From NCBI RefSeq assembly GCF_002007105.1, contig NZ_MVBC01000007.1, positions 62,001-126,000 of the forward strand: a DNA stretch of 64,000 nt. Reading direction: 5' to 3'. Below the pieces are notes generated by a model that saw only the letters and a program-made list of their open reading frames with translations, was not told the origin of the DNA and ran no database searches. The position numbers were made by a program, and so were the translations under genes. Shown in pieces: positions 53,596 to 58,484 of this stretch. Position 1 is the stretch's first letter, and every line of letters starts with the position of its first letter. The DNA is from Hymenobacter sp. CRA2. GTDB lineage: Bacteria; Bacteroidota; Bacteroidia; Cytophagales; Hymenobacteraceae.

Positions 53596-54294
53596 GTGAA
53601 CTGCTTCGTCCGGAAAGCCTCCGTCTGCGTGGCGGCCGCTGCGCTGCTGCCCGTGGCCGCAGCCGCCCTGCCACCTCCCGATTCCAGCCTCGTGCGGCAG
53701 ACGCACCGGCGCGTCGTGTTTCAGTTCGACCAGCGGTACTCCCTGCTGCAGGGCGCACTGGTGGGCATCAACGGCGTGAAGCTGGGCGTGGAGTGGCGCG
53801 GCCGCTTGCGCACGGGTGTGGGCTTGTACTTTCTCAGCAGCGCCGTGCCCACCCGCGAAACGCCGCCCGTCTTCGTGCCGCCCGGCGCCGAGGACAAGGT
53901 GCGCTTCCGCTACGCGGCGCTCTACGGCGAGTACGTGCTCATCGGCAACCCGCGCTGGGAGCTGAGCACGCCCGTGCAGGCCGGGGTGGGGCGCTACTAC
54001 ACCCGTTACCAGTACCCCGACGGCACGGTGTACCACTCGCCCCGCCGCACCATCTGGCTGATCGAGCCCACGGTGGGCGGGCACATGCGCGTGTTTCGCT
54101 GGGTGGGCATCGGGGGCGGGGTAGGGTACCGCCAGGCCCTGCTCACCGCCGATAAGCTCGAAGACGACATCAGCGGCGTGATTTTCTACGGCCGCGTCAA
54201 GCTCTTCCTCGGCGACCTGTACAAAGTAGTGCGGGGTCGCGAGCGGCTGTTTTCGCAGCGGGGCCTGCACCGCCGCGACTGGCCGGCCCGGTAG
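53596..54294 (+). CDS. putative outer-membrane beta-barrel protein
   Basis: A 232-residue exported protein. The N-terminal 25 residues act as a signal peptide. The rest shows alternating hydrophobic/polar strands rich in Tyr, Gly, Arg and aromatic residues ('GVEWRGRLRTGVGLYFLSS', 'YAALYGEYVLIG', 'GGHMRVFRWVGIGGGVGYR'), as in small outer-membrane barrels. GTG is the only good start and sits behind a perfect -7 box. It lies beyond three direct repeats, which may control it. Confidence 0.65.
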   Translation: MNCFVRKASVCVAAAALLPVAAAALPPPDSSLVRQTHRRVVFQFDQRYSLLQGALVGINGVKLGVEWRGRLRTGVGLYFLSSAVPTRETPPVFVPPGAEDKVRFRYAALYGEYVLIGNPRWELSTPVQAGVGRYYTRYQYPDGTVYHSPRRTIWLIEPTVGGHMRVFRWVGIGGGVGYRQALLTADKLEDDISGVIFYGRVKLFLGDLYKVVRGRERLFSQRGLHRRDWPAR

Positions 54295-54369: not shown

Positions 54370-54407
54370 AAAAACGGCCGCTCCTGACGTCAGGAGCGGC
54401 CGTTTTT
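54370..54407. terminator. bidirectional terminator, perfect 38-bp palindrome
   Basis: Two 19-bp arms meet with no loop in between (54370-54388 and 54389-54407), with A5 and T5 at the ends. It lies between the convergent barrel-type and protease genes. Confidence 0.9.
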
Positions 54408-54425: not shown

Positions 54426-56030
54426 TTAATCGGCGTACTGCAGCTGCAGCGCCTCGCCCACCTGCTCGGCCGGAATGGCAAAGCCGATGCCCTCGATGCC
54501 GCGCCCCACCAGCTTGGCGTTGACGATGCCTACCAGTTCGCCGGAGCGGGCCACCAGGGCGCCGCCGGAGTTGCCGGGGTTGATGCTCACATCGGTTTGC
54601 AGGATGGTGTGGCCCTCCACCTTGCGGCGGCCGCTGATGATGCCCTTGGTGATGGTCTGGCCCAGCTCCTTGTCGGCGGGCGTGCCGATGGCAAACACGT
54701 CGGTGCCCAGGTCGGCGGCGCCGGCCGTGGGCAGCAGGAAGGGCGTGAGGCCGTCCACGTCCACTTTCAGCAGCGCCAGGTCCATTTCGGGGTTGGTGCG
54801 CACCACTTTAGCTTTGGCCTCCAGCCCGTCGGGCAGGTTTACTTTCACTTCCTCCTGCTCGCCCACCACGTGGAAGTTGGTCACGATGTAGCCGTCAGCG
54901 GAGATGATGCAGCCGCTGCCGTGGCCGCCGGCGGTTTCCACCGTCACCACGCGGCGCGCGGCCGCCCCGATTTCGTTGCCGTTGGCGGCTGGCTTCAGCG
55001 CGGTGCGGTGCAGCACGATGGGCGCCTGCTTTTCCTCGGGGGCGTCGCCGGCCGGTTTGGCCAGGGCCGTGGTTACCTGCTTGCTACCCACGAAGGCATA
55101 TAGCGCGTTTTCGAAGGCGTCTTCGAAGGCTGCCGAGCCGCCCTTCTCAAACTTGAGCGCGTCGCCGGTGGTCTTCTGCTCGAAGACGGTTTGGCGGTTG
55201 CGGTTCAGCAGCTTCCAGGTCACTTCCACCGAGCAGCGCGTTTCGTAGCGGGCCAGGGCCTCGTAGGGGCTGGAGGCGCGGACATCGAGGTGCACGGTGC
55301 GCATCTCGCCCTGCAGGGTGTAGCGCGTGTTGGCCCCGGTCGAAAACAGGCTCTTGGCTTCCGTGGCCGGCACGGCGTAGCCCAGGTCCTTAAGCGAGCT
55401 GTTCACGGTTTGCTTCAGGTGGTCCGAGTCCACGTCCAGCGACTTGCCGAAGTACAGCGTTTCGGTCTCGCCCTTGTGAACGGAGGCGGTGCCCATTTTG
55501 TCGCCGCCCTTGAGGTGCACGTTCAGCACCGTGCACTGCACCGTCTGGCTCCCGGCTACCTGGGTAGGCTTGCGCACCAGCTGCGCCCCGATGGTCTTCT
55601 TGTTCAGGCGCTTGTGCGAGCCGGTGGCCAGATCGATCAGATAGGGCGCAAACCCCAGAACCAGCCCCGTGCCGTGCAGGTCGATGTCGTTGGCCTGGGT
55701 GTAGAGGGGGGCGGCCAGGGCGCCCAGGCTGAGGTACACCGTGGAGTTCCACTTGTCGGGGTAGAGCATTTCCACGTGGTCCTTGTAGCCCTCGTGCTTC
55801 ACGCGCACCTCCGAGTTCTTGTTGCGTCGCAGCCGGATCTTCACCTCGCCGGGGTTGCCGGCAATGGGGCGGGTCTTCACCTCCTTGTCGTTCACTAAAA
55901 TGGTGCTGCCCGCCGGCTGGCCCACCACCTTCACCGTTTGCCACGGCGTGGAGAGAATGGTGGCGCAGCTGGGCAGCAACGTGGAGCTGATGAGCAGGCC
56001 GCTGATAACTAGGGTAGAGCGTTTTGTCAT
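54426..56030 (-). CDS. PEGA-like / trypsin-like serine protease lipoprotein, paralogue 1
   Basis: A 534-residue lipoprotein with the lipobox 'LLPSC' (Cys22). Residues about 33-85 are PEGA-like ('GQPAGSTILVNDKEV', 'VRVKHEGYKDHVEMLYP'). A region of about 200 residues unlike any family I know follows ('TVNSSLKDLGYAVPATEAKS', 'FEKGGSAAFEDAFENALYAF'). The C-terminal third is a DegP/HtrA-type S1C protease: H387 in 'VTNFHVVG', D417 in 'MDLALLKVD' and S488 in 'NPGNSGGAL'. No PDZ domain follows. The active site is complete. The gene at 56937-58484 encodes a close paralogue with the same plan. Confidence 0.86.
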   Translation of the reverse strand: MTKRSTLVISGLLISSTLLPSCATILSTPWQTVKVVGQPAGSTILVNDKEVKTRPIAGNPGEVKIRLRRNKNSEVRVKHEGYKDHVEMLYPDKWNSTVYLSLGALAAPLYTQANDIDLHGTGLVLGFAPYLIDLATGSHKRLNKKTIGAQLVRKPTQVAGSQTVQCTVLNVHLKGGDKMGTASVHKGETETLYFGKSLDVDSDHLKQTVNSSLKDLGYAVPATEAKSLFSTGANTRYTLQGEMRTVHLDVRASSPYEALARYETRCSVEVTWKLLNRNRQTVFEQKTTGDALKFEKGGSAAFEDAFENALYAFVGSKQVTTALAKPAGDAPEEKQAPIVLHRTALKPAANGNEIGAAARRVVTVETAGGHGSGCIISADGYIVTNFHVVGEQEEVKVNLPDGLEAKAKVVRTNPEMDLALLKVDVDGLTPFLLPTAGAADLGTDVFAIGTPADKELGQTITKGIISGRRKVEGHTILQTDVSINPGNSGGALVARSGELVGIVNAKLVGRGIEGIGFAIPAEQVGEALQLQYAD

Positions 56031-56165
56031 AGGGTAAACACAGGAGGAGAAGGACTGAATTGTCGGGATTAAGCCCGTAGGCAAAACCCGTCCAAGGTAA
56101 GCACAATTCGCAGGGCCGTGGTACTGAAAGCAGGCCGGGAGAAGGATTTTTTTGGGGCCAGCAAA

Positions 56166-56224
56166 AACATCGCCCCGGGCGGAGTCACCGGTTCCTGGCG
56201 AACCAATGGCCTCCGCCCGGGGCG
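56166..56224 (-). terminator. Rho-independent terminator of the 136-residue gene
   Basis: A perfect 13-bp stem (56171-56183 and 56212-56224) with a 28-nt loop is followed by a T-run on the minus strand. Confidence 0.75.
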
Positions 56225-56261
56225 GTCCGGGATGCGCCTGCGGGGCGCGGTAAAGAGGACC

Positions 56262-56672
56262 TTACGGCTTGGTAACGGTGACGCCCGTCGAGGAGCGCAG
56301 CCGGCGCATCACGTAGTAGCGGTCGGTGTCGTGCGCGGTGGTTTTGGTTGGGGTGGGGCGGTCGGGCTGGTACACCTGCACCAGTTCCCAGCCCAGGGAG
56401 CCCAGGTAGTTGAGGGCACTGATGGGCGTGGCAAATACCTGGAGCTTACCCACTTCCAGTTTCGATAGCTCGGGGCCGCCCAGCTTCTCGCGGCCGTAGC
56501 CAAAGTCGGCGTACACGTTGCTGCTGCCGGTCACGTGCACTTCGCAGTACTCATAGCGGCTGGCCTCGGGAGTGGACTGGGGCTGGGACCGGTTGTTCTG
56601 GGCCTGCGCACCGGCCGCTGCAGTTAGCAGAAAGAGGAATGCGAATAGCCAGGTTTGTAGCGTGCGGGTCAT
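56262..56672 (-). CDS. secreted DUF4177-like small protein
   Basis: A 136-residue protein with a signal peptide ending at 'AGAQAQ'. The mature part has 'YEYCEVHVTGSSNVYADFGY', 'ALNYLGSLGWELVQVY' and 'DRYYVMRRLRS'. The pattern 'LN-x-LG-x-x-GWELV ... Y-x-(M/L)-(R/K)-R' is that of DUF4177-type small domains. It lies between the two protease paralogues on the same strand but has its own terminator. Function unknown. Confidence 0.65.
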   Translation of the reverse strand: MTRTLQTWLFAFLFLLTAAAGAQAQNNRSQPQSTPEASRYEYCEVHVTGSSNVYADFGYGREKLGGPELSKLEVGKLQVFATPISALNYLGSLGWELVQVYQPDRPTPTKTTAHDTDRYYVMRRLRSSTGVTVTKP

Positions 56673-56861
56673 GGGGATGGAGAAGAAAAGGGGGAACGTG
56701 AAACGTAGCGAATAAACGCAAAAGCCCGCTATACGCTATCTGTAGGCCGGAAAGACGAGGTCTGGGCAGTGGCTTGTCGGGCGACTGGCACAGCGACTCA
56801 GTTACAAGTATGATGTGGCACAGGGCTTTAGCTCGTCAGTCGCAGCCGTACCGCACCGCGT

Positions 56862-56903
56862 CCAAAAACACACAAGCCGGCTGCGCGAGGCGCAGCCGGC
56901 TTG
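56862..56903 (-). terminator. Rho-independent terminator of protease paralogue 2
   Basis: A perfect 13-bp stem (56873-56885 and 56891-56903) and a following T-run on the minus strand. Confidence 0.8.
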
Positions 56904-56936
56904 GGCAGGCAGACCACCGGGGCCCGCCACACGGAG

Positions 56937-58484
56937 TTAGTTGATGTACTTCAGGTGCAGCGCCTGCAGCACCTGCGGGGCCGGAATAGCAAAGCCCAGG
57001 CCTTCAATGCCGCGGCCCATCAGCTTGGCGTTGATGACGCCCAGCAGGTTGCCGGTGCGGTTCACCAGGGCCCCGCCCGAGTTGCCAGGGTTGATGCTCA
57101 CGTCGGTCTGGATAAAGCTGCGGCCTTCCACCTTGCGCTGGGCGCTGATGATGCCCTTGGTCACGGTCTGGCCCAGGTCGCGGTCGGCGGGCGTGCCGAT
57201 GGCAAACACGTCGGTGCCCAGGTCCACGCCGCCTTCTTCCACCAGGCGCAGCGGCTGCAGCGGCTTGCCGGCCTTCACCTTCAGCAGGGCCAGGTCCATG
57301 GTTTCGTTTACGCGTACGATGTCGGCCTTGAGGCTGTCACCGCTCTGCAGCACCACGCGCACTTCGTTGGCCCCGTCCACCACGTGGAAGTTGGTCACGA
57401 TGTAGCCGTCGGCCGAGAGGATGCAGCCGCTGCCGTGCCCATCGGTGGTTTCCACCGTCACCACGCCCTTGGCCGCGCGGCTGATGTCGTTGCTTTCCTG
57501 CGTGCTCGTCACGGGGCGGGCCAGGCTGATTTCCTTTTCCTCCTCCGTGTCCACCGTCGTTTTCGGGGCCGATTTGCTCAGCAGCTCGTAGGGCTTCTTG
57601 TTGTAGAGGAAGGCGTAGAACGCGTTTTCAAAGGAGTCTTCGAAAGCCGCCGAGCCGCCCTTCTCAAACTTGTCGGCGTTGCCCGTGGTCTTTTGCTCGA
57701 ATACGACCTCCTTTTTGCGGTTGAGCAGCTTCCAGTTGACGGTGGTTTCGCAGCGGGTAAAGTACTTGGCGTACGCCTCGTAGCGGTGCGTGGCCACCAC
57801 GTCGTAGCGGATGTTCTGCAGCTCGCCCACCACGGTGTACTTCGCCGAGGTGCCGGCCGAAAATAGGCTCTTGGCTTCCGTATCGGGCACCGAGAAGCCA
57901 GCTTCCTTCAGGGCGCTGTTCACGTTTTCCTTCAGGTGGTTGGCGTCGGTGTCCAGCGACTTGCCGTAGTACAGGATTTCCTCCGGGCTGTTCTTGACGT
58001 AGAAGTTGCCCAGTTTGTCGCCGCCCTTGAAGCGCACCGTCACGCCGCTGCATGCCACGGGCAGGCTGCCGTCAATCTTGTTCGGCAGCTTGATCATCGG
58101 GGCGTTGACCTCGCTCTTGTTGAGGCGGTACACCGCGCCGGTGCCCATGTCCACCAGGTACGGAATCAGCAGGGTCGGAATGCTGGCAATTAGGTCGAGG
58201 ATGGCCAACGGGTTGGTCTTATCCGGGTACAGAATTTCCGTGTGGTCCTTGTAGCCCTCGGCCTTCAGCGTGATTTCCGAGGTCTTCTTGCGCGACAGGC
58301 GCACCCTCGGCGGCGTGGTGTTGCTGTTCTTGGCCGGCGTGCTGTTGACGTAGACTACTGTGCCCGCCGGCGCGCCCGTGATGTGCACCGTTTGCTTGGG
58401 TGTGGAAATGATGGTGGCGCAGCTTTGCAGCAGCATCGAGCTGATCAGCAGGCTGCCCACCGCTGGGGTAAAAAGTTTTTTCAT
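56937..58484 (-). CDS. PEGA-like / trypsin-like serine protease lipoprotein, paralogue 2
   Basis: A 515-residue lipoprotein with the lipobox 'LLQSC' (Cys22, the same position as paralogue 1). The PEGA-like domain (about 33-85) has 'GAPAGTVVYVNSTPA' and 'LKAEGYKDHTEILYPDK'. The middle contains a hydrophobic stretch ('AILDLIASIPTLLIPYLVDM') and the shared 'FEKGGSAAFEDSFENAFYAF'. The protease triad is H367, D397 and S469 ('NPGNSGGAL'). There is no PDZ domain. The two genes probably arose by tandem duplication, with a small secreted-protein gene now between them. The substrate is unknown. Confidence 0.86.
   Translation of the reverse strand: MKKLFTPAVGSLLISSMLLQSCATIISTPKQTVHITGAPAGTVVYVNSTPAKNSNTTPPRVRLSRKKTSEITLKAEGYKDHTEILYPDKTNPLAILDLIASIPTLLIPYLVDMGTGAVYRLNKSEVNAPMIKLPNKIDGSLPVACSGVTVRFKGGDKLGNFYVKNSPEEILYYGKSLDTDANHLKENVNSALKEAGFSVPDTEAKSLFSAGTSAKYTVVGELQNIRYDVVATHRYEAYAKYFTRCETTVNWKLLNRKKEVVFEQKTTGNADKFEKGGSAAFEDSFENAFYAFLYNKKPYELLSKSAPKTTVDTEEEKEISLARPVTSTQESNDISRAAKGVVTVETTDGHGSGCILSADGYIVTNFHVVDGANEVRVVLQSGDSLKADIVRVNETMDLALLKVKAGKPLQPLRLVEEGGVDLGTDVFAIGTPADRDLGQTVTKGIISAQRKVEGRSFIQTDVSINPGNSGGALVNRTGNLLGVINAKLMGRGIEGLGFAIPAPQVLQALHLKYIN

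Follow-up and report, generated by a model that had tools for sequence, protein, structure and literature searches.

Introduction

HtrA proteases are usually thought of as a protease plus a PDZ domain; bacterial examples are DegS, DegP, DegQ and MucD (MEROPS family S1C). The subject of this study is a tandem pair of genes, paralogues A and B, in a 64,000-nucleotide stretch of Hymenobacter sp. CRA2 (contig NZ_MVBC01000007.1, positions 62,001 to 126,000; hereafter the window). Like DegS and its relatives, the two encoded proteins have an S1C catalytic domain with an intact triad, and the best fold matches of a full-length model were the DegS (DegS-deltaPDZ) and MucD structures; unlike them, they lack a PDZ domain and have a putatively lipid-anchored N-terminus and two extra domains. 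Our preferred reading, to which we give a probability of about 0.55, is that each is a PDZ-less HtrA-type protease tethered to the outer membrane and facing the periplasm, in which a CsgG/LptE-like domain replaces the role of PDZ.

Several other systems share parts of this design. MarP- and MamO-type S1 proteases combine an S1C-like catalytic domain with an unrelated membrane anchor, which consists of transmembrane helices and not of lipid. The fold predicted for the middle domain of the Hymenobacter proteins is that of CsgG, PelC, PqiC, LptE, TolB-N and TraT, a group made up mostly of outer-membrane lipoproteins, none of which is known to us to carry a protease. Arabidopsis Deg5, which unlike the proteins described here resides in the thylakoid lumen, has to our knowledge no lipoprotein signal, PEGA or CsgG/LptE-like domain. 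It is, however, an HtrA-type protease that naturally has no PDZ domain (PMC3640471); the absence of PDZ is already known, and the part that appears to be new is the pairing of an HtrA-type protease with a CsgG/LptE-like fold. A literature search, with most subscription papers outside its reach, found no description of the PEGA, CsgG/LptE-like and PDZ-less S1C architecture. The pairing with an export or assembly lipoprotein fold would be another way of tethering an HtrA-type protease to the outer membrane, and perhaps of regulating it there. Envelope quality control in Bacteroidota is poorly known, which gives relevance to a protease that occurs in six or more families of a single order and has relatives in other lineages of the phylum.

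Domain order and the protease domain

The features of the two genes are as follows.

54426..56030, minus strand: paralogue A (P0001, 534 residues), predicted lipoprotein with a PEGA-like/hydrophobic module, a CsgG/LptE-like domain and a PDZ-less S1C protease domain
55968..56030, minus strand: paralogue A signal peptide, lipobox LLPS/C22
55596..55967, minus strand: paralogue A residues 22-145, beta domain of PEGA-like type, then hydrophobic segments and a DxxTG[AS] motif
55059..55544, minus strand: paralogue A residues 163-324, alpha/beta domain with predicted CsgG/PqiC/PelC/LptE/TolB-N fold
54429..54950, minus strand: paralogue A residues 361-534, HtrA-type protease domain with His387, Asp417 and Ser488, no PDZ after it
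56937..58484, minus strand: paralogue B (P0002, 515 residues), architecture as in paralogue A
58113..58421, minus strand: paralogue B residues 22-124, PEGA-like/hydrophobic module
57576..58061, minus strand: paralogue B residues 142-303, predicted CsgG/LptE-like domain, placed by alignment with paralogue A
56940..57464, minus strand: paralogue B residues 341-515, HtrA-type protease domain with His367, Asp397 and Ser469, no PDZ

Paralogue A starts with the ATG at 56030, not with the TTG upstream at 56084, and the two proteins are 53% identical across their whole length.

A Pfam scan matched Trypsin_2 to both paralogues (E values of 2.9e-31 for the 534-residue and 7.8e-32 for the 515-residue protein) and to every one of the 25 intact full-length proteins that make up the member set. 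No PDZ was found by the same scan in the two paralogues or in any of the 25, and each protein ends only ~45-55 residues past the catalytic Ser. Because the catalytic domain itself ends about 45 residues after this Ser, there is no room for a PDZ domain. The His-Asp-Ser triad and the sequence GNSGG were invariant across the 25. These results bear out the sequence-only reading of this DNA, which had described both proteins as PDZ-less S1C proteases with a complete triad. They share the catalytic domain and triad of the HtrA/DegP family (S1C) and lack its C-terminal PDZ domain.

The profile models for this family gave the same picture. The HtrA model TIGR02037 matched the paralogues with E values of 4.3e-45 and 4.9e-50; however, the NCBIfam cut-offs for degP_htrA_DO, DegS, DegQ, HhoA and MarP were not reached, the scores being 154 and 171 bits versus 416 for the best model. 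The scores fall far below the cut-offs because only the catalytic domain is held in common. The MarP model matched with an E value of 6.3e-24, again below its cut-off (85 vs 250 bits), and the paralogues were likewise below the cut-off of the MamO-type model.

In a tree of the protease domains, all 25 members fell into one clade (support 99/96), separate from the conventional HtrA of the same genome (L016) and from generic plasmid HtrA. The clade also contained an S1C protease from a Candidatus Manganitrophus plasmid (L046:1038-2576), which has a different N-terminus and, by eye, lacks the middle domain; the catalytic domain therefore occurs behind at least two different N-terminal parts. One alternative is that the proteins are catalytically silent or chaperone-like, after the example of the PDZ-less plant protein Deg5, for which protease activity was not detected (PMC3640471). 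We consider this improbable, because invariance of the triad and GNSGG in 25 members over long divergence points to selection on catalysis.

The middle domain

The sequence-only reading had set apart about 200 residues of unrecognized sequence between the PEGA-like and protease domains, and had said that a new domain there, shared across Bacteroidota, would support its claim. Part of this stood: the Pfam scan of 16 middle domains gave no meaningful family match, and none of the 16 reached the cut-offs of the CsgG, LptE or PqiC (ABC_trans_aux) families, the best being ABC_trans_aux at an E value of 0.13 in one domain. A Pfam match of the region to zf_C2H2_ZHX (E ~0.003-0.04) was taken as chance, and all matches in a profile search of the PDB had E values >0.2. 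However, residues ~90-330 turned out to consist of two parts: the last stretch of the PEGA/hydrophobic module and, distinct from it, a folded domain. The motif FEKGGSAAFED[A/S]FENA, which had been noted with a variable residue and is indeed present in both paralogues, is the C-terminal helix of this domain.

Because the full-length model was weak in the middle, the domain was modeled alone with AlphaFold2 from 16 relatives. The resulting model had a predicted local distance difference test score (pLDDT) of 80.8 and a predicted template modeling score (pTM) of 0.79. Foldseek searches with it gave E values down to 1.3e-6, and the top rows were nearly all outer-membrane lipoproteins. The VIA-align 2 Z-scores were 11.2 for Cj1090c (126 residues), 10.1 for PqiC, 9.9 for CsgG and for FlgT, 9.6 for PelC, 8.2 for TolB and for LptE, and 7.7 for TraT; a list dominated by a single fold group at scores above 8 exceeds what VIA-align 2 calls common. 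The model thus predicts for the middle domain the alpha/beta fold of outer-membrane accessory lipoproteins (CsgG, PqiC, PelC, LptE, TolB-N and TraT). On these matches a new fold was rejected, and a predicted fold assignment is now available for a stretch that had no Pfam annotation.

The N-terminal module

The paralogues matched PEGA (PF08308) with E values of 0.13 and 0.034 and with 12.7 and 14.5 bits, against a Pfam gathering score of 20.8. Among the 25 members, nine matched it at E values up to 0.1, the best being 3.5e-9, and another protein with the same N-terminus reached 2.1e-5. These relatives make a PEGA-like domain plausible in the pair, although the match lies under the Pfam cut-off in both paralogues.

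The same lipobox, PEGA, hydrophobic and DxxTGA module occurs in other Bacteroidota lipoproteins, which differ in their cargo: some carry a caspase-like C14 domain, others unassigned regions, and others nothing at all. In L042 the N-terminus exceeds the Pfam cut-off for PEGA, aligns with the module of the protease family in hhalign (E 6.8e-14), and precedes a caspase-like Peptidase_C14 domain (Pfam E 7.1e-22). By eye, L075 and, by resemblance, L081 and L084 also have a PEGA/hydrophobic anchor before a caspase-like domain. Four stand-alone lipoproteins of 156-169 residues (L083, L086, L087 and L088) contain little beyond the module. Of the PEGA matches elsewhere in the genome, the two that were read as proteins, L002 and L003, resemble the N-termini of TonB-dependent receptors and were set aside as not related. 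Because the module is found alone and on other cargo, such as the caspase-like proteins, we conclude that it is a generic anchor.

The hydrophobic segments adjoin the middle domain in most of the 10 Hymenobacteraceae members tested, which is consistent with a different arrangement, in which a CsgG/PelC/TraT-like ring would have these segments as a helical membrane barrel and the proteases as a gate or chamber. The closest folds do include ring formers (the PelC dodecamer, CsgG and the TraT decamer), and the TraT protomers are anchored by membrane helices (PMC11733297). Nevertheless, several members have weak segments or just one, and HtrA proteases are built on trimers, which would be a symmetry mismatch. 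LptE, PqiC and TolB-N have the same fold, and we know of no such ring among them. We regard a ring-forming complex of this kind as unlikely. Slightly less likely still is the specific version in which the ring or barrel in the outer membrane would hold the HtrA catalytic domains in a fixed array, as a proteolytic gate controlled by the lipoprotein fold instead of by PDZ.

Location and proposed role

As the sequence-only reading had noted, the lipobox Cys is residue 22 in both proteins (LLPSC in paralogue A and LLQSC in paralogue B). It is invariant in the 25 members, which predicts a type II signal peptide. An acidic residue (D or E) at positions +2 to +6 after this Cys was found in none of the 25, whereas the published surface-export signals of Bacteroidota are acidic: K-(D/E)2, SDDDD and SDDFE (PMC5080379). 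Because none of the 25 carries such a signal, the sequences favor the periplasmic face of the outer membrane.

This result also bears on the possibility that the proteins are surface-exposed lipoprotein proteases acting on extracellular substrates. They do have a lipoprotein signal, and many Bacteroidota lipoproteins go to the surface. DegP/DegS-type relatives, on the other hand, act in the periplasm. Cell-surface proteins of archaea and bacteria have been reported to contain PEGA (PMC2447325), and the structure of TraT, a protein with the fold predicted for the middle domain, includes an extracellular ring (PMC11733297). Taking these together with the missing acidic signal, we think a surface protease doubtful. 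The proposal of a distinct surface or periplasmic protease family holds for its recurrence across Bacteroidota, and its surface alternative is disfavored.

In our preferred reading, the protein would be lipidated at Cys22 and lie at the outer membrane on its periplasmic side. There the CsgG/LptE-like domain would dock to, or assemble at, outer-membrane partners and bring clients to the protease, a task that falls to PDZ in DegP and DegS. The clients may be proteins located at this membrane or close to it, which the protease would cleave as part of quality control or to process them, and the tandem paralogues would likely have overlapping roles. It had been suggested earlier that an envelope-anchoring N-terminus replaces PDZ. 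The proteins are PDZ-less and are predicted to be envelope-anchored; however, the PEGA part is probably not the substitute, because it is missing from four members that have the middle domain and protease (see below), and the middle domain is the better candidate.

Several points weigh against this reading. The likeness of the middle domain to the outer-membrane lipoproteins is at the level of the predicted fold, with ~10% sequence identity, and establishes neither what family the domain belongs to nor what it does; its binding partner may lie elsewhere than in the outer membrane. The Manganitrophus protein L046 indicates that the middle domain is not essential to the protease. A hydrophobic segment might cross the membrane or insert partly into it, altering the topology. 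Finally, the export signal was tested in Capnocytophaga, and the signals used came from three genera, none of them in the Cytophagales (PMC5080379).

Distribution and evolution

The gene was present in 9 of 150 genomes of the family. An order-level search with a better profile matched 15 of 271 genomes, one of them falsely (G055, an unrelated open reading frame). The other 14 belong to six families, and in each of them the gene has all three parts, PEGA, middle domain and protease. In two of these (L055 and L058) the frame is broken at the start of the protease; they are pseudogenes or assembly errors. Persicobacter plasmid pPP1 carries a further three-part member. Recurrence of PEGA-S1C fusions, for which the sequence-only reading had suggested a survey, was thus found in the order, but four members from more distant Bacteroidota (G210, G383, G347 and G730) have a lipobox, middle domain and protease and no PEGA. 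Because these keep both the middle domain and the protease, we conclude that these two form the constant core. A match in G323, a glycogen-synthase-like open reading frame, was also discarded. Overall, the architecture is real and conserved but rare, with a patchy distribution.

Tandem pairs were also seen in G877 (L054 and L063) and G907 (L056 and L064). In the protease-domain tree these pairs are lineage-specific (support 100/99 and 100/100), having duplicated separately from the pair in the window. Paralogue A is the orthologue of the single-copy Hymenobacter gene. Paralogue B branches outside paralogue A and all Hymenobacter genes (support 99/98) and is therefore the older or the faster paralogue.

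A tblastn search of plasmids with the middle domain alone matched nothing; with a whole relative as query it returned generic HtrA and one true member, that of Persicobacter. This plasmid copy and the patchy, sometimes tandem occurrence might suggest a protease for anti-phage or mobile-element defense, and the PADLOC RT-Protease_XI model did match the protease region (E 1.4e-16). That match, however, was limited to the shared trypsin-like part, with no reverse transcriptase domain in the Pfam scan. Moreover, pPP1 is ~1.07 Mb and typed non-mobilizable, and an envelope lipoprotein would be an unusual location for a defense effector. The neighbors on both sides, menE on one and an outer-membrane protein on the other, are common to the window and three Hymenobacter loci, which argues for vertical inheritance. 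A role in defense is very improbable.

Neighboring genes and terminators

The remaining features of the locus are the following.

56873..56903, minus strand: terminator hairpin 3' of paralogue B (-31.1 kcal/mol, z -6.2)
56262..56672, minus strand: small predicted secreted protein of 136 residues, between paralogues A and B
56171..56223, minus strand: hairpin and T run 3' of the small gene (-57.4 kcal/mol for a 91-nucleotide stretch, z -4.3)
54370..54407, minus strand: terminator hairpin 3' of paralogue A (-32 kcal/mol, z -7.6), common to the convergent gene at 53596

The last of these is an almost perfect inverted repeat of 17 bp, flanked by A/T runs on each side, and is likely a two-way terminator between the convergent genes.

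The small secreted protein had been proposed as a partner of the proteases. No match to it was found near the protease gene in eight related Hymenobacter loci, and each of the three genes in the window is followed by its own strong hairpin with a T-rich tail; these results do not support the proposed partnership. Because each has its own strong terminator, it is unlikely that paralogue B, the small gene and paralogue A form one operon. The Bacteroidota-type promoter pattern had no matches in the window.

Two other neighbors were noted. Three Hymenobacter loci (L024:4554-5408, L025:4550-5401 and L028:7465-8190) encode a predicted secreted protein of ~240-285 residues, DUF481-like by eye, close to the protease gene and in two of them adjoining it; in the window, no such protein was seen in the interval from menE to the protease genes. 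The gene adjoining one PEGA-less member (L031:162-1136, minus strand) encodes a protein whose start resembles, by eye, a TolB-N/CsgG-like domain.

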